Positions 1,649 to 10,221 of a stretch of 64,000 bases of DNA are shown piece after piece. The notes beneath the pieces were generated by a model. That model was not told where the DNA came from. It saw only the letters and a list, made by a program, of their open reading frames with translations, and searched no databases. How positions within the stretch are numbered: the first letter of the stretch is position 1; each line of letters begins with the position of its first letter. The DNA is from Cymbomonas tetramitiformis (Eukaryota > Chlorophyta > Pyramimonadophyceae > Pyramimonadales > Pyramimonadaceae). The DNA is taken from assembly GCA_001247695.2 (NCBI GenBank), contig LGRX02035496.1, positions 9,924-73,923 on the forward strand, read 5' to 3'. Both the position numbers and the translations under genes were made by a program.

Positions 1649-2398
1649 GGTTATCGACCCACTTACGCTTAGTGGTGCTCGTCTTCGCTGCGACTCGCTT
1701 CGGGTTTTCCCCGATTCTAACTCCGTCGTTCCGTCTTAAATCCGTCCGTGGGCTACTCCGTCAAATCCGTCTTCGCCCACCTCCGTTCGTAACTGCCTAC
1801 CATTTGTGATTGGTGGTCTACGATTTTTGGCAGCCTTTATCCGTCACACATCTTTTTTACCGTCAAACTGGCAGCCTACTTCCTCCCCAACATGTCTCAG
1901 CAACGTCAATCAAGTCTTGCAGAGGCCCTCCGTTCCGCGAGGCGTGCTAGCGCCACGCCTTCGCCGCCTCCTGAGTCCGGCACTACCACGCCGGGCCCAA
2001 CGCGACCGAGGAGGATTGTGTCCACTGCCTCCTTGAGATCACGTCCATCATCGCTGCGGCTATCGCCGACTCCGTTCATGTTTTTCAACGATCCGTCAGT
2101 CCTCTCCTCCACTCCTGTGGAGGAGGGGAGGGAGGAGGAGTATTTGGAGCAATTATCTTACGCCTTCACGTACTCCACCGACATCATCACCGTTTTACGC
2201 CCTGGAGGGTTCAACCCTAAAAATGGCGGTAGGCTATTTAATTTAGATTATTTCTTCATGATTTTAGATTAACCCATTTTCATGTTGATTTTAGATTAAG
2301 TTTTTTTTATCTCATCCGGCTATTACCGGTGCATGCATCCATGCCATCGAAATATTACACAAAACAGTTGTCGCGTAGCCAAACGAGAGGAAAGTAAC

Positions 2399-5300
2399 AT
2401 GGTTGAGCCCGACGGCTTTGAGTTCACAAGCCCGGGAAAAAATGTGGAGGATATATATCATTCGGATGAAGAGGATGAAGAGGAATTCCTCGTTAAACAC
2501 ATGGAAAAGTCGAAACGTACCCGTGTCCCCTTAGTGTGGAGTACCGTCCTCAATGGTGTATCGTATGTAGAGTGCACAGACAAGATGGAAACTTTGAGCC
2601 TCGAGGGTGTGACCAAGTTTGGCAAGGATTATAGGTCGGAAAAAAACGGTTCCGTGACTCAAAACTTCAGGTGTGCTTTACAGCATACACACGGTTGTCA
2701 AGTTTACTATAAAATTGTCAAGGGAACGACCTTATGCCCTACTATTCCTTGCGACTTGTACACCCGTGGGACACACGACCATACTAATTTAACAGGAAAG
2801 GGTATGTCGAAAGATTTAAAGGACAAGTGTAAGGATGCGATCAAGGAAAAGCTTCCGCCTAAAGCCATTTTTAACCCCTCTTCCGGTAAGTCGATGTTGC
2901 CATTATGGTGTTGCCCGCCTTTTTTTGAATAACTCTCGTGTCCGTGGTCCAATTCGAACTTTAAAGATACCGCCGGAAACGTCTCGGCGAGGCGCATCGC
3001 GCTGCACCGTGCATAATATATTGTTGTAAACATGCACAAAGCGTTTCGGTGTCAAGTTACAAATTGCGATTGTTACATATGCTCAACATATTCCCAACTA
3101 TAAACCCTAATATTGACCCTAATGTCGGCTCCATAAACCCTATAAAGTTCATATTCTAGGTCCACGGTCAAAACGAGGGTTGTTACATCACTAGGGCTTG
3201 TATAGCTTAAATGTAACGAACTTGTATGTGTCGGTTTTCATTTAACTTGGAATTTTATGCAAAATGTTGCTTCTTCACAATTTCCATACACATGTTTGAA
3301 TGCGCCTTGATGCGACGTTTTCAGATATGTTTTCAAAATTGCGGTGATCGGAGGACAAATGCCTTAACAAATCAAAATTGAGTACAGGATTTTCGATGCT
3401 TCGTTTTCGAAGCACATACCGGAAGAGGGGTTAAGAAGCTTAGTACCGCAGTCACCACAGCCATGGAAGACGATGACGACGTTGAGTACAAGGTCATAAA
3501 GAACTTCGTGTACAACAATCGCAAACAAATCTTGGGGCTTAAAACCATAAAGACTTGCGGTCAGTTCATGGAGGTTTGCCAGACCTCCAACTTGCTGGCC
3601 ATCCCCGTGACCGATCGCAAAACGGCGGGGACGCTTTGCATGTTTGAAGGACAAGTACTCCAACCGAGCGGCTTCGAAACCGTGGAACATTACGCCGAGA
3701 ATTCCGCGAACACCCTGCCTCCTATTCCTTTCGAAGCCCAAGCGACCCAAGATGAGCTTAATACTTGGAAGCTGGCGGGTTGGAATGAAGACTTTTCCGT
3801 TTATGAACGGAACCTTCAAGCACATTTCAACTCAATTCTTGCTTGCGAGTCCGCTGAGTACTTCGTGCATATCTTAGAAAACATGCGTGTCGTCCAAGGG
3901 TGGAGTACGCGTTCGAAACGGTTTTACAAAGGGAAGTTGAACTTGCGTGCCCTTTACAAGAACTACACCGAACTCGTCAAGGATTATGTCGCAGCGCTGA
4001 AACGCAAAAGGTGGTGCGTGATTTACACCACTTGGGGGAAACTCGAGGTACTTCTCGCAAAGGATCACCGCTCACGCGACGACACGTACAAGACGAACTG
4101 GCAAGGCTTACCCCTTGAATGCAACGGGTCTTCCTACTTGGATAACCGTTTTCGTCTCGGGGCGCTCGCCATCAAATCGCACGAGGACGCCTATGCTTCG
4201 CAAATAGTGGACTTTTGCTTGATCGCGGCTATGCAACTTGGTTTCCAGAAAGTGTGGCAACCTCGTTATCATACTTTGGATCACTCCCTCGCTTTCTTCA
4301 ACGCTAACGCCAAGCTTCCGGAAACCATCACGCATGTTCTAGAGCATTTGAGGTTACCTACGAACCTCTGTACACTTGTCGCGGAAGAGATTACGCAAGG
4401 GATATGTTGGTCGCATTGCATGATGAAGCTTAACGAGAAGACCGCGCTATTCAACGACGCTCATAACGTTAACGGCTTCAAGCAGGGCGTTACGGAAATA
4501 CACAACATCACCATCGTTGGTGCTCGTGATAGTGCATTCAAGCTCTTCATCGAACTATACAAGCGTGATGAAGAGTATATTTGCAACTGGTTCGTGGAGA
4601 CTTGGTGGGGCAAGTGGGGTGGGTGGGTTCTCGGCTTCATGCCAGAAGGGATCCAATCTACGCAGAATAGTCCCGAGTGCGTGAATAGACACGTGAAAGA
4701 CGAGATGACCATGCGTAAGCAACTCCAACTCGAGGTATTCCATCCTTCTGCGCTAAAATACATGCACGAGGAGACGATCTACGACGGGCAACACCCAATA
4801 CCTACGACTCCAGTTATTACACAAGCTATTTGGCGGGAGGCGCTACTTATGATTGACAACAACATGCTCGAGCTTATGACGCGCACGACCGGCGTCTTGG
4901 GGGTTACAGACCGTCCTTCATATGTCGTTCCCTCCCTTAAGACCTTCGAGAAGTTGAGTGGTTCCACTATCGCGGATAAAAGGAAAGAGATTGCTCCCCT
5001 TGTGGTAAAGTTCCTCGCCCTTATGCGCGACCCTGAACACCCTCCAGCGACGGTTGTCACCTTCGAGCAGTTCATGAACACCTACAAGTCTTTTGTGATC
5101 TTACGACCTTTGGACGCTAATAAGGTCACCGAATTTGGGCACCACTGGTGTATGTGCCCTATCTACGCGGAGAGCGTCACGTGTGCATGTAGTATTGCTG
5201 TTGGCTTATTCAAAGGGAAGTTTAAGGCGCCTCTTGAAAAACATCTCGACATAATTGGCCGACACCCACAAGTGGGACGCCCGAGAAAACCGGCTGGCGC

Positions 5301-5577
5301 CTTGAAAAGGCAACCCCTTGGGAAGATCACCGCGAAACTGAAACGGGAAGCATCCAAGCGAGCGCGCGAGATGGCAGAGCTAGACATGGAAGCAAGATGC
5401 TCGCAGCAAGTTCCTAAAAGTTGTTCGTGCGAACTGTGCGGTGAAGAAGACAACGGAGATGAAATGCTGTTATGCGACGTGTGCAATAAGGGCTTCCATA
5501 TTTTTTGCTTGCGTCCAAGCCTAAGCAAGATCCCAGCAGGAACATGGTTGTGCGGACTATGCGTAGCTAAGGAATAG
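2399..5577 (+). CDS. MULE transposase with zinc finger, SWIM and PHD finger
   Basis: Two exons are proposed: 2399-2885 and 3452-5577. The intron 2886-3451 begins GTAAGT and ends GCAG, and its phase joins one leftover base to two, giving an 870-aa protein. The start at 2399 has a purine at -3; an upstream ATG at 2333 is also open. Residues about 85-128 (C..H-GC...THDH) resemble the FLYWCH/WRKY-type DNA-binding finger common at MULE N-termini. The catalytic core shows DDTYKTNW (about 371), SHEDAY (about 404), LDHSLAFFNA (about 438) and CWSHC (about 480). A SWIM-like CMC...CAC motif lies near 725, and a C4HC3 PHD finger (about 820-868) ends the protein. PHD fingers read histone tails, so insertion or repression may be chromatin-guided; that is inference. 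No frameshift is seen. Confidence 0.85.
2871..3434 (+). promoter_or_regulatory. 18-nt inverted repeat pairing the transposase 5' splice site with the intron 3' end
   Basis: TTAACCCCTCTTCCGGTA at 2871-2888 spans the exon/intron boundary. Its exact complement TACCGGAAGAGGGGTTAA lies at 3417-3434, 17 bases before the splice acceptor. Just upstream (3399-3414) is a perfect GCTTCG-TTTT-CGAAGC hairpin. In the pre-mRNA the 18-bp stem would bury the 5' splice site and bring both splice sites together. It could regulate splicing or be the trace of a small inverted duplication. Confidence 0.6.
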
Positions 5578-5727
5578 ACAGTTTTTTCCAGGTGTACATA
5601 AGTGTAATAGCAAGTATTAATATTTTGTGTACACACTATTCTCAAGTATGTTTTTGAATCAATCTAGCAACCTCTTTACTTTGCTTTACTTTATAAAAAA
5701 TCCCACTTGGCCCAGGAGGTGAAGTAA

Positions 5728-6151
5728 CAGTGTCAACAACGGAGCCAGACCGTCTCCGTCGGAGCCTGGTATTCGCTGGTTCCATCAGAGACGGAGGCCA
5801 CGGCTACGCGGCTCCGTTGGATACGGGGCAGATCGGAGCCTGAATTTTGAGGCTCCCCCGGAGACGGAGGCTGCGAGCCCGCGGCTCCGACGGAGTCGGG
5901 ACACGTCGGAGCCTGATATCTGAAGCTCCATCGGAGACGGAGCCTGCGTGCCCACGGCTCCGACGGAGACGGGAAGTGTCGGATCCTGAATTTCGAGGCT
6001 CCATCAGAGCCGGAGGCTGTGTGTCCGTGGCTCCGATGGAGACGGGACACGCCGGAGCCTGAATTTTGAAGCTCCATCGGAGCCGGAGCCTGGCTAAAAT
6101 CGAAACCCGGCGATCGGAGACGGGTTGACGCTGGCTCCGTTGTTGACACTG
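5728..6151. mobile_element. hAT MITE with internal tandem repeats, nested in the MULE
   Basis: The ends are CAGTGTCAACAACGGAGCCA and its reverse complement, within a perfect 8-bp duplication TGAAGTAA (5720-5727, 6152-6159). An 8-bp duplication and a CAGTG terminus fit the hAT superfamily. The interior is about five degenerate GC-rich units of roughly 75 bp built on CGGAGCCTGAATTTTGA and GGCTCCGACGGAGACGGG. The long open frames across it are products of the repeat, not genes. Confidence 0.85.
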
Positions 6152-6326
6152 TGAAGTAAATATCCGTGGTAGCATGTGGTAGCCAAATGTTGGTGAAGCA
6201 ACTTTTGCAAGTGAGCCGGTCAGGTTGTGGCAAGGGAATATCTGCTAGGTCCCTACCCACTACGGGTATTGGTTTTTTTGCGGCTCACTGTCTGTTGGGC
6301 CCGCCTAACCCCTTCAAGAGTTGCGT

Positions 6327-6384
6327 ATTCACGGCCGTGAATCTGGAATTCACGGCCGTGAATCTAGAATTCACGGCCGTGAAT
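6327..6384 (+). promoter_or_regulatory. Three identical 16-bp palindromes at 21-bp spacing
   Basis: ATTCACGGCCGTGAAT occurs at 6327-6342, 6348-6363 and 6369-6384, separated by CTGGA and CTAGA. The spacing equals two helical turns, as expected for cooperative binding of a dimeric protein to one face of DNA. The array ends 99 bp before the methyltransferase-like gene, so a promoter or operator role is plausible but unproven. Confidence 0.6.
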
Positions 6385-6483
6385 AACTGGGATACCGTTT
6401 TTGGCGCGACTCGGAAAGTTGCAAGGGGGAAATACTTTGAGAAACAAGTTGCCGATATACGACCGATTGTGACTAACTAAAAG

Positions 6484-7789
6484 ATGCCTCGTGATAAGTG
6501 CGGTGTATGCTGTCCGAAAGCACCTAGCAAGCAAGATTTACGGCGAGTAGTGGCAATGATATTGGGACCGTATGCAAAGCTCGAAGAGATACGCCCAATT
6601 TACTGGCCTGCGCAACTCGAGTCCACAGGTGGAAGAAATGGGTATTCGCAATATAAAGTTGGAGAGCTTTTGATTTTGTTGAAATCATATTACGTACATA
6701 TCCTAGGAAGTGAGCAAGCAATTAAAGAAGGTCAACTGGCTTTATTTTTTTCCGCGTTAGCTTCAATCCGGCCTACAGACAGCGGGCTCGAAGTATGCTG
6801 TGATAGGCATAATACAATTGTAGCTTACGACGCATGGGTAGACGAAATCTTTTATTCAAACCAGTCGCCAACACTCTCCGATATATGCCAACCTACTGAA
6901 CCCATAGGGCGAAACAATGTGAACGCGGAGGTTGCGACATGCGACGAGATTGAACCGTATGAAACAACGGAGCGCGTTGTGGACAACAATGCGAACGACA
7001 ATGCAAACGACGACAACGCGAGCAAGTTGTTTCCGAAACGAAAACGGAGTGCGTTGTCAACGAGGTGTGCTCCTCTGAAAAATTTACCATTTAAAATAAC
7101 GATACCAAGGGTATGTGATAAAGGCACTAGTTTTTATCCCACAATCGCACAACAATACACGCCTCTATTAGCAGTTATTTGCAGTTTGTTTCACGAAAAG
7201 AAAATTGGGGATTTTTGCTGCGGTAAGGGACCTCGCTACGTTTACAACAACCTAGTTCGGTTCAAACCGAAGACGATCTTTCTGAGCGATAAGCATCCTG
7301 CGAAAGGCATAAGACGCCTAGACTTAGAGAAAATCAAGTGGGAAGAATTCAACCCGCAAGTAGACATCATAATATCGTCCTTGCCATATGCAAGAGGGAA
7401 GTGCGAACCTTTGTTAGCTGCGTGTCTTCAATCCAACGCCACGATCGCATTCGTTCGAACGTCCTGTGGTTGGGGATAGTAGAGCTAGTGCGTTCCAAAG
7501 ACTTGGCTTAAAGATTTTGCTACCGCCTGCAAAGTATCCGGGGTTCGACCGTAGTTTAGGAGAAGTTGAAGCCTGGTATATTTTTTTCAACTTAGCGACA
7601 ACAAAAGATTTACTAAAGAAAAGTGTCAGTGAGTTTCACAAATTGCTGTACGAAGACAGAGGATACCCGGAAAGTGCTGGGAGCGTACCTTTTATTTATT
7701 CTGGCGTAGAGCACAACGTTGCATCTTTCAAGGATCGAGGACTTATTTTGTGGGATTCGCGGAAACAGGCGGCCGGTGCTAATAAGTGA
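6484..7789 (+). CDS. SAM-dependent methyltransferase-like protein carried by the MULE (frameshifted)
   Basis: The first frame (6484-7479, 331 aa) opens with a cysteine pair, CGVCCPK. After an acidic/asparagine linker and a basic stretch (PKRKRS) comes a class I methyltransferase-like core: motif I IGDFCCGKG (about residue 241), motif II LSDKHP (about 266), and DIIISSLPYA (about 293) in the position of the (D/N/S)PPY motif of N6-adenine methyltransferases. The match continues in the next frame (from about 7466): GDSRASAFQRLGL..LPPAKYPGF...EVEAWYIFF, which resembles the end of such enzymes. A one-base frameshift near 7475 therefore breaks the gene, unless an unusual intron exists. The atypical SLPY could mean altered or lost catalysis. 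The target (DNA or RNA base) is inference. Confidence 0.6.
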
Positions 7790-8471
7790 TAACCAAAGGT
7801 TGAAGGTACTACTCACGGAATTTGAAGCAACGTTGCATGCACAAACGTGCAAGATAATAGAGCGTGGCTGCGCAAACGAGGCAAAAGGCAAGAAAGGAGG
7901 GAAGGAGGGTTGGAATGTTGGGTGGTGGTTTAACATGGGGAGAACAGTGCAGCAAGAGGGGTTTGCCCCTAAGCTAGATGGCACATGTGCTTTCGGGACG
8001 CCCCACCCTTGGCACAAGAAAAAAGGTGTTTACATGGACGATCCGCTAACAAGTGCAAGCAAGCCGTATTGGAAGAAAGAGCTTTACATCCTAGCAGGTC
8101 AAATCTTAGAAATAATAGACGCGGATTACAAGAGAGACGGCGATTGGTGCTTGTATGTGTCGTGCATGCTAGCCGGGAAGTGCGAAGTGAAGCGACACGA
8201 GGACAGAAAAGATGTGTCACATCAATACATAATCTTTCTTGGAAACTACAAGAACGCGGTTTTGGAGATGGAGTCGCCTAGAGAGGATAGCAAGGGCACC
8301 CTTCTCCAATTCTCTGAAAGCCATAAGGTTTTAAAGTGCGATGCGCGGTGCAAACATAGAGTAGCTTCTGAAGGTTTTGAGGGAGTGCGCTATTGCGTTA
8401 CTTTATACAAAATGTATGACAGGCGTCTAACAGAACCAGCCCCGGTGTATTGGCCACCACATTATATTTAA
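7719..8471 (+). CDS. TET/JBP-like 2-oxoglutarate/Fe(II) dioxygenase carried by the MULE
   Basis: This frame overlaps the 3' end of the methyltransferase-like gene and has no early ATG. It may be a fusion partner brought in by a frameshift or intron near 7770; the first internal ATG is in WWFNMGRT (about 7934). The C-terminal half shows the iron-site pattern of the double-stranded beta-helix oxygenases: HxD in KRHEDRKD, then HQYIIFLGNY, a distal histidine in CKHRV and the 2-oxoglutarate-binding arginine in GVRYCVTLYK. In this arrangement TET/JBP enzymes, which oxidise 5-methylcytosine or thymine in DNA, are the closest family I know. TET/JBP genes travel with other DNA transposons (KDZ elements) in fungi and algae. 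The assignment rests on motifs only. Confidence 0.55.
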   Translation: MHLSRIEDLFCGIRGNRRPVLISDNQRLKVLLTEFEATLHAQTCKIIERGCANEAKGKKGGKEGWNVGWWFNMGRTVQQEGFAPKLDGTCAFGTPHPWHKKKGVYMDDPLTSASKPYWKKELYILAGQILEIIDADYKRDGDWCLYVSCMLAGKCEVKRHEDRKDVSHQYIIFLGNYKNAVLEMESPREDSKGTLLQFSESHKVLKCDARCKHRVASEGFEGVRYCVTLYKMYDRRLTEPAPVYWPPHYI

Positions 8472-9169
8472 TGTACAACAGTGGCAGGGGAGTACGCCTT
8501 TGCGAGATCACTAGAGTCAACCATAACGTGTTTGCATAGACTCACCCCCGTAGTAACGTCTGAAGCACACCAATCCTGCCTTAAAACGTACCCCCTATTG
8601 TGCACAGTTAGTTCTGAAGCACAACTTGCACATAGTTTGCCAATAGTGTTTTCACATCGCCTAATTGTAAGCATAGCGCCCGCTGAGCAATGGTGGACGC
8701 TACGGTGCTCCCTAGTAGCTAATAGTGATAACCAATACAAGAATCGAGCCATGTATGACATGTTTTTTGCCCGGTTGTATAACACCGATAAGAAAGGTTG
8801 CATAATATCGTCGAGTTGCCACCCTGCAACATGGTTAGTGAAGTGAAACAAGGGAAACGACCCAGAGAACAAGTGTCGCTGGCACGGTGAATATCCCCAG
8901 CTCCCACGTGAAGGTATAACCCATCCCCAAGGCATACCCTCCGTGTATTCGAGATACACATAGCGGTTATGAAAGTCCCATATAGGGTTACCGTCACTAT
9001 CGTCACTCTCCCATAGGTTCACAGTGTCTGTATACTTTAGCCGGAAGCCAGTTTCGACATACTCGTTGAATACAGTGCCTTTGAAAGCGGTGGGTTGATA
9101 GTGGGGGGGCCTTATTTTCAAGCAGAACACGCCGTGAGTGTCTATTACAACGGCGCCCACCATTATCAC
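8468..9169 (-). CDS. Cysteine-rich MULE cargo protein of unknown function
   Basis: A 233-aa frame converges on the dioxygenase gene, and the two stop codons overlap by four bases. The best ATG is at 9161-9163. The N-terminal half contains WDFHNRYVYLEY and PWGWVIPS. The C-terminal half carries a likely zinc-binding cluster, CENTIGKLCASC...C..DVTTGVSLCKH. A second frame upstream (9003-9251) begins MRKPPKSFKKVCLTC, which looks like a missing N-terminus with another cysteine pair, so a frameshift or intron near 9175 is possible. I recognise no family. Its position inside the TIRs makes it cargo or an accessory transposition factor. Confidence 0.5.
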   Translation of the reverse strand: MIMVGAVVIDTHGVFCLKIRPPHYQPTAFKGTVFNEYVETGFRLKYTDTVNLWESDDSDGNPIWDFHNRYVYLEYTEGMPWGWVIPSRGSWGYSPCQRHLFSGSFPLFHFTNHVAGWQLDDIMQPFLSVLYNRAKNMSYMARFLYWLSLLATREHRSVHHCSAGAMLTIRRCENTIGKLCASCASELTVHNRGYVLRQDWCASDVTTGVSLCKHVMVDSSDLAKAYSPATVVH

Positions 9170-10221
9170 AAGTGAGACAAACCTTCTTAAAGCTTTTTGG
9201 AGGCTTCCTCATGATGGCAAGCGGGAACGAGAGCGTTTGACCTGTGTGCACATTATTTGAACACTTTGAACACGAGTCGTGAAAAGGACCACCGGTAATA
9301 GCCGGATGACATAAAGAAAACTTAATCTAAATTCACAAGAAATTGAGTTAATCTAAAATCACAAAGAAATAATCTAATTTAATTATTTTCCCAAAAATGG
9401 CTTCACCCTCGACAACGATTCTGCCGACGCTGACTTCGCCGCCCTCCTTGCTGCACTCCGTCATGTTCTTTTTCCCGTGTCCTTCCCGGAGTTCTCCAAG
9501 CTCCTCGACCTCGAGCACGACGATGACTTCTACCGCACGTCGTCCTCAACGAGATCATCTTCACCATCCTCCCCATCGTGCTTCGTGGTACTGCCTTGGC
9601 GTTGTACTCCGAAGCGGCTCGTTCCCACCCTGGGGACGGGCGCTACATCCTCCAGCGCCTTCGGTACGAGGTCGAGGGCGTCCCCGACTCCGACACCGAC
9701 CGTTTTTGGGTCAAGATGCGTTCAACCGTCATCAACGAGAACGACGACCCCGCCCCTCAGCTCACCGCCGTTCGCACCTTGGGCGACAAGCACGCCCGCA
9801 TTAATCCCGACTACAGCGAGGCCAAGCGTGTGAAGGACCTCTGGCACATCTTGTCCACCTCCGCCAAGCACTCCCCCTTCGTCACCCCGCTGTACATCAA
9901 CGTCATCCGCGAACTCCGTGGTGGTACGCCTTTCTCCTTTTCCACATTGTGCCTCCGCTTGCGCACGGTGTGGAGGGAAGAACACGCATTCGCCACCCTC
10001 GCCACCGACACGGACCCTGCCGCGCCGCCCGGTGGTGGTGGTGGTGGTGGTGGTGGTGGGTACCGGCCGAAGAAGCCCGCCTTCAACGCCGTGACCTTCG
10101 ACCGCACCCCCGCCTATTCCGTCAAACCCGTTGGTGAGTGGCGGGCGGAGCCGCCCACCGCCCTCGTGAAGCGCTGGAAAGGGGTCGGCTTCCCTTGCAT
10201 TCTCCGCTTCCGTCTCTGGGG

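Follow-up and report, generated by a model that had tools for sequence, protein, structure and literature searches.

Two adjacent open frames of the green alga Cymbomonas tetramitiformis, one with class I methyltransferase motifs and the other with an iron/2-oxoglutarate-type motif, raise the question of how the two proteins are related and what they would do for the mobile element that carries them. They lie in a stretch of 64,000 nucleotides (contig LGRX02035496.1, hereafter the window, to which all positions refer), positions 2228-9392 of which are a decayed copy of a DNA transposon resembling Mutator-like elements (MULEs). An initial annotation, made from the letters alone, had seen in the two frames a writer/eraser pair of DNA base modification. 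In the explanation that we consider best, a single gene of the decayed element would give rise to either a methyltransferase or a putative dioxygenase on a common N-terminal domain, with a role in countering host silencing; for this explanation as a whole we put the probability at roughly 0.45.

Two Frames With Predicted Splicing

Relatives of the element were sought in the 851.7-Mb assembly (25,745 contigs). As this search scores best candidates only, i.e., 50 of 4,071 candidates for the transposase and 150 of 793 for the second frame, genome-wide match counts are lower bounds. The loci represent a main family, a second family (L041/L042) and a third family (L037). In the window, open frames run on the forward strand from 6481 to 7479, from 7418 to 7789 and from 7710 to 8471, and frame breaks had been noted at 7475 and 7770. 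The break near 7446-7475 accompanies the loss of 17 nt that most relatives retain, a deletion present in 2 of 19 copies. The offset near 7770, on the other hand, is not a mutation of the window copy: three families have it, and it falls where the methyltransferase stop codon and a conserved splice acceptor lie.

A predicted junction from ACGAG|GT (7064/7065) to CAG|GCG (7768/7769) is in phase in all three families. Both exon regions are held fully or nearly by 24 distinct fetched copies (L042, truncated where its locus ends, was left out), and the spliced frame is open over 421-429 residues in 21 of these, including the window, as listed by a script that required the donor and acceptor letters, so that copies lacking them could not appear. 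The introns measure 703-731 nt (704 nt in the window vs. 721 nt in intact main-family copies) and fall into all three classes modulo 3. The unspliced methyltransferase frame is intact, with 435-441 residues, in 8 of the 24. Among the three exceptions to the open spliced frame, L005 with a broken exon 1 and L040 with a lost exon 1 start are ordinary decay of this exon, while in L038 exons 1 and 2 are each open and separated by a 5.8-kb insertion in the intron, beyond the range of the script.

Across the three families the codon is kept at 44 of 175 shared residues (Met and Trp left out), and at sites chosen after annotated gene models had suggested them, it is kept only at the donor Arg among 11 Arg, only at the donor Thr among four Thr and only at the acceptor Ala among 13 Ala. 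The NCBI models P0010 and P0011 use the junction equivalent to 7064/7769. Model P0002 (CYMTET_30269), 97% identical to L040 over the second frame, has instead a short intron from an EAW|GT donor (7575/7576 in the window), which would keep the phase and is conceivable; however, the region encodes the conserved methyltransferase tail, and this fusion is disfavored because breaks upstream of that donor would still spoil it. The relation of the frames and the conserved splice-like signals are observed in the DNA; splicing itself is what we infer from them. The two frames are probably one gene, with a splice prediction exact to the base and testable with RNA data. The initial annotation had overlooked that one gene apparently has both frames as its alternative products.

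The Methyltransferase Frame

The motifs IGDFCCGKG (7204-7230), LSDKHP (7282-7299) and DIIISSLPY (7363-7389) are conserved, and Foldseek with a weak model of the protein returned class I methyltransferases in nearly all 50 matches listed (best E 2.7e-3). In agreement with the earlier reading, frame 1 looks like a class I methyltransferase by its motifs and by the matches of this weak model. No N6-adenine DNA methyltransferase is prominent in the VIA-align list for the model. Motif IV of N6-adenine DNA methyltransferases has the form (D/N/S)PP(Y/F/W), which is not found here, SLPY being present in nine out of nine aligned sequences. We take SLPY to resemble the motif of enzymes methylating exocyclic amino groups and not that of C5 methyltransferases, and the NLPY-type motifs of rRNA dimethylases are presumably nearer to it. 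The methyltransferase members scanned gave no match to PF00145, the C5 DNA methyltransferase family. TET/JBP enzymes act on 5-methylpyrimidines, and with a motif IV that we believe not to be C5-like, the proposal of a writer and an eraser working on one and the same base is not upheld. A search with the methyltransferase, the bias of which is opposite to that of choosing copies by exon 2, yielded approximately 37 full-length frames in 122 matches (hand count).

The Dioxygenase-Like Frame

The motif of exon 2 had been recognized correctly as being of the iron/2-oxoglutarate type: HED occupies 8196-8204 (H 8196, D 8202), followed by H 8355 and R 8388, i.e., HxD-X50-H-X10-R, and all four residues are invariant in the seven family members aligned. 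The motif is weak on its own because the HxD...H...R pattern arises in 9.6% of shuffles of the same protein and with tight spacing in 2.3%. Its recurrence in three families that are ~60% identical adds weight to the dioxygenase reading, as does purifying selection. From the sequence evidence, exon 2 probably encodes a putative 2-oxoglutarate dioxygenase. Membership in TET/JBP proper is unlikely: none of seven exon-2 family members matched Pfam, including PF12851, at E values up to 10, and the structure model (predicted local distance difference test, pLDDT, 37.7) is too poor for use, its top structure matches being unrelated. A PF12851 profile search of the genome was silent, as were its controls. 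Profile searches found nothing relevant among PDB sequences and nothing meaningful in PHROGs and NCBIfam, and viral_contigs contained no relatives of either protein. A deeper protein search (alignment A5) gathered eight proteins, and those with an organism name all stem from Cymbomonas.

Conservation and Selection

Among 19 distinct main-family copies, exon 1 contains a single, in-frame indel, the methyltransferase core eight indels, all of them frameshifting, and exon 2 none. Ratios of nonsynonymous to synonymous differences within the family are 0.53 for exon 1, 0.69 for the core and 0.12 for exon 2, the last value being biased low because the copies were picked by exon-2 similarity. Uninterrupted frames of 253 codons, 78 in number, head the 150 best second-frame matches, compared with the approximately 37 full-length frames in the methyltransferase search. 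Purifying selection acts on each of the three genes when families are compared, with nonsynonymous divergence (dN) of 0.30-0.44 and synonymous divergence (dS) saturated or above 2.

A Possible Anti-Silencing Function

Starting from the observed element, its gene order and its conservation, we infer chemistry, substrates and an anti-silencing role along the following lines. Straight-through reading would yield the N-terminal domain followed by a class I methyltransferase (440 residues), and splicing from 7064 to 7769 would join the identical N-terminal domain to a putative Fe(II)/2-oxoglutarate dioxygenase (427 residues). The common domain with its KRKRS basic run could act as a targeting domain that takes both enzymes to one place. 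There, the dioxygenase would oxidize a modified base in element DNA, or act in chromatin, and in this way counter host silencing, while the methyltransferase would place another mark, a permissive one that could be on adenine. Judged from sequence, anti-silencing is the likeliest, if putative, role. A more far-reaching version, in which alternative splicing provides two base-modifying enzymes, the element alternates at its own copies between placing a permissive mark and taking off a silencing one, and a second dioxygenase of 417 residues in full copies is held in reserve, is doubtful.

Some observations weigh against this explanation. By hand count, approximately 32 of the methyltransferase matches end in a stop around residue 246, where two different 1-nt deletions occur in four and three of 19 aligned copies, respectively; because copies with this stop have spread, the methyltransferase seems dispensable in cis. 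Furthermore, CpG depletion is uninformative as a trace of 5-methylcytosine (5mC), with no CpG signature present. In favor of the explanation, the genome has C5 DNA methyltransferase matches, 124 in all to PF00145 (best E 5.7e-65). Many of these cover a short piece of ~60-70 positions within long open frames, which might mean that part of such a domain is carried by a repeat family. Also in its favor, for the prasinophytes Micromonas and Ostreococcus the available part of one report describes N6-methyladenine (6mA) in place of 5mC directly downstream of active gene starts (PMC12695648).

Alternative Explanations

The second frame could also be reached from the methyltransferase frame without splicing, through an overlap of two genes or through programmed +1 ribosomal frameshifting near 7770. 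The frames indeed overlap by ~40-80 nt with a similar offset in the three families, and the overlap DNA is well conserved, but the methyltransferase frame is not intact in 16 of the 24 copies, whereas all but two of the 24 have exons 1 and 2 open, and the donor codons are conspicuous when the families are compared. In the window, L037 and L041, moreover, no ATG precedes the NMGRT segment of exon 2. We regard this arrangement as quite unlikely and keep to one gene with predicted splicing. The dioxygenase assignment could be wrong in that exon 2 encodes an unrelated DNA-binding or structural protein with a coincidental HxD...H...R pattern. Neither a family nor a structure match speaks against this, the pattern occurs in 2-10% of shuffles, and with 93 of 245 alignment columns invariant among the seven members, four invariant residues are unremarkable. 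On the opposite side, the window has this X50/X10 spacing, and the pattern recurs in two other families. In a double-stranded beta-helix, strands are expected to flank the motif residues, and predicted strands do so here, albeit in a low-confidence model; CKHRV...GVRYCVTLY, moreover, resembles what we take to be the last strands of TET/AlkB-like enzymes. A coincidental motif is a doubtful alternative to the putative dioxygenase.

Other alternatives accept the two proteins and dispute what they are for. Phage-like hypermodification, or a self-marking that lets the transposase tell element from host DNA, could take the place of anti-silencing, but motif IV is presumably not of the C5 type, and Pfam detects no glycosyltransferase among the element proteins, most of which match no family. 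In favor of this idea, phages often encode C5-methyltransferase, TET/JBP dioxygenase and glycosyltransferases that act together, according to the part of the source consulted (PMC12730594); we consider it improbable and retain anti-silencing as the proposed role. The same gene content might also consist of captured host fragments without function for the element (transduplication), given that MULEs tend to pick up host gene fragments (PMC6446971, in part). Purifying selection across families, an identical gene set in a diverged family and frames that are open in the best 78 exon-2 matches and in most of the 50 best transposase matches make such an origin highly improbable compared with genes serving the element.

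Relation to Known Systems

A close likeness is to TET-carrying transposons of fungi, DNA transposons with a putative base-oxidizing dioxygenase beside the transposase (PMC12730594, in part), from which the present element differs by its green algal host, the lack of a PF12851 match and the methyltransferase in the same gene; the words Mutator and MULE do not occur in the main text of that paper. Retrotransposons of dinoflagellates and charophytes with their own DNA methyltransferase (DNMT) are likewise mobile elements with a methyltransferase-type enzyme, which is of the C5 type, and the terms TET, dioxygenase and alternative splicing are absent from the portion of the source available; it also mentions DNMT-encoding DNA transposons in marine viruses (PMC5890265). 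VANDAL elements of Arabidopsis share with the present one the MULE-type organization and a non-transposase protein that counters silencing, VANC, which, by its description in the parts of the sources consulted, is a sequence-specific anti-silencing protein and on that description alone is set apart from the proteins studied here (PMC5735166, PMC10398659). Within MULE-Phytophthora_1, a SET domain provides another example of an epigenetic enzyme domain in a MULE, directed at histones and not at base chemistry (PMC6446971, in part). The same source describes a PHD finger in the transposase of Rehavkus, as present here; this element differs by its many accessory genes. The minisatellite that precedes the 3' terminal inverted repeat (TIR) in Rehavkus was found neither in the window nor in L030, which have only a period of 24-26 nt inside the TIR itself.

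Methyltransferase transposons and transposons with TET-type erasers are thus known separately, in different elements and hosts; what would be new is both enzyme types in one MULE-like element, apparently in one gene. Titles and abstract beginnings of the open literature revealed no element with both, subscription papers and Repbase lying outside this search. If the explanation is true, selfish DNA would be shown carrying a whole modification switch, and the element would offer a natural test of the division of 5mC and 6mA between silencing and activity in prasinophyte algae.

Structure of the Element and of Other Copies

The features of the window copy are collected in Table 1. A MULE-like element bounded by TIRs and a 9-bp target site duplication (TSD), as originally described, is borne out: the TIRs pair over ~97 bp (2235-2331 vs. 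9290-9385) with 84-93% complementarity, and an exact 9-bp TSD is present in four of six copies read to both ends (window, L028, L029 and L034), while none was found in the other two, L030 and L032. In the window as in other copies, both frames lie within the TIRs. MULE is the better-supported label because of TSD and TIRs, although the PHD finger also recalls Rehavkus. A length of 9 bp is typical of MULE TSDs, which are 8-11 bp long (PMC6446971, in part).

Table 1. Features of the transposon copy in the window.
Feature	Position	Strand	Remarks
Left TSD	2219-2227		9 bp, AAAAATGGC; exact match to 9393-9401
Whole transposon copy	2228-9392	+	TIRs, TSDs, other copies aligning to these ends
Left TIR	2228-2331	+	
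Transposase frame, N-terminal part	2399-2874	+	Aligns with L030 transposase
Nested insert	2875-3430		Not in L023, L026, L030 and others; separates N-terminal part of transposase from rest
Transposase frame, remainder	3431-5577	+	97.6-98.7% DNA identity to five copies over 3431-5727 or most of it
PHD finger, transposase C-terminus	5428-5562	+	PF00628 E=5.3e-12; PDB PHD matches for L030 copy
Nested insert	5728-6150		22-bp perfect inverted ends, four internal repeats at 73-bp spacing
Deletion site	6263-6327		~2.3-2.7 kb gone (173-aa and 417-aa open reading frames (ORFs) of full copies); palindromic TTCACGGCCGTGAA repeats next
Exon 1	6484-7064	+	N-terminal domain common to both predicted products, ends KRKRSALSTR; open in 22/24 copies; donor ACGAG|GT conserved
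Methyltransferase core	7065-7789	+	7065-7768 also predicted intron; broken in window, 17 nt shorter than intact main-family copies
Exon 2	7769-8471	+	HxD...H...R dioxygenase-like domain
Cys/His-rich gene	8468-9212	-	~250 aa; frameshifted in window copy
Right TIR	9290-9392	-	
Right TSD	9393-9401		9 bp, AAAAATGGC; exact match to 2219-2227

Joining the flanks with a single 9-mer restores an open frame across all 178 codons tested, and the host site (1891-2227 plus 9402-9600) is an open frame split by the element. The interrupted frame may be a retrotransposon gag. With two nested inserts, the ~2.3-2.7 kb loss and breaks in both the methyltransferase core and the antisense gene, the window copy looks non-autonomous. 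At 6327-6389, a 21-mer is repeated three times in tandem, each unit with the palindrome ATTCACGGCCGTGAAT, and for many copies similarity to the window ends around these repeats. L021, L022, L027 and others start near the palindromes, the upstream genes being absent from the stretch read.

L030 has an intact transposase frame of 914 residues including the PHD finger, besides which a Pfam scan of the transposase found nothing relevant. HRSRDDTYKTNW..., STQNSPE and a SWIM-like CxC...C stretch, kept in the transposases of two families, are read by us as presumable MULE-type transposase features. In addition to the methyltransferase and dioxygenase-like frames, L030 contains ORFs of 173 aa, 417 aa (antisense) and ~250 aa (antisense, Cys/His-rich), and all six genes are at least partly present in seven fetched main-family loci (L023, L024, L025, L026, L030, L032 and L033). 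The 417-aa protein, lost from the window copy, is a further HxD...H...R protein of full copies that had been overlooked; it has HLD...H-X10-R in both families possessing it, a pattern with a shuffle frequency of 13-18%. For at least 30 of the 50 best transposase matches, a second-frame match of the same strand lies downstream at a distance of no more than 9 kb, 27 of these 30 pairs being 3.5-4.6 kb apart; the remaining 20 have none downstream among the best 150 second-frame matches.

The second family has the same genes, with identities of 40-54% for the transposase, 49% for the methyltransferase, 58% for exon 2 and 53% for the Cys-rich protein, and the third retains three of them (methyltransferase, dioxygenase-like, Cys-rich) along with a similar right TIR, while no transposase was found within the 10 kb read of L037. 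In the second family, the 417-aa (74%) and 173-aa (88%) ORFs sit in an inverted block. This block (L030:3438-5389, L042:2242-4215), adjoined by palindromic inverted repeats, has opposite orientations in the two families and a single one in all seven main-family loci holding it, and its identity between families (74-88%) exceeds that of the remaining genes (40-58%), a pattern that would suit a cassette that flips or is exchanged. A second, diverged copy (34%) of the 173-aa ORF lies at L042:5112-5693. Two second-family elements at L041:280-620 are arranged head to tail, their apparent TIRs abutting in a near-palindrome of ~170 bp.
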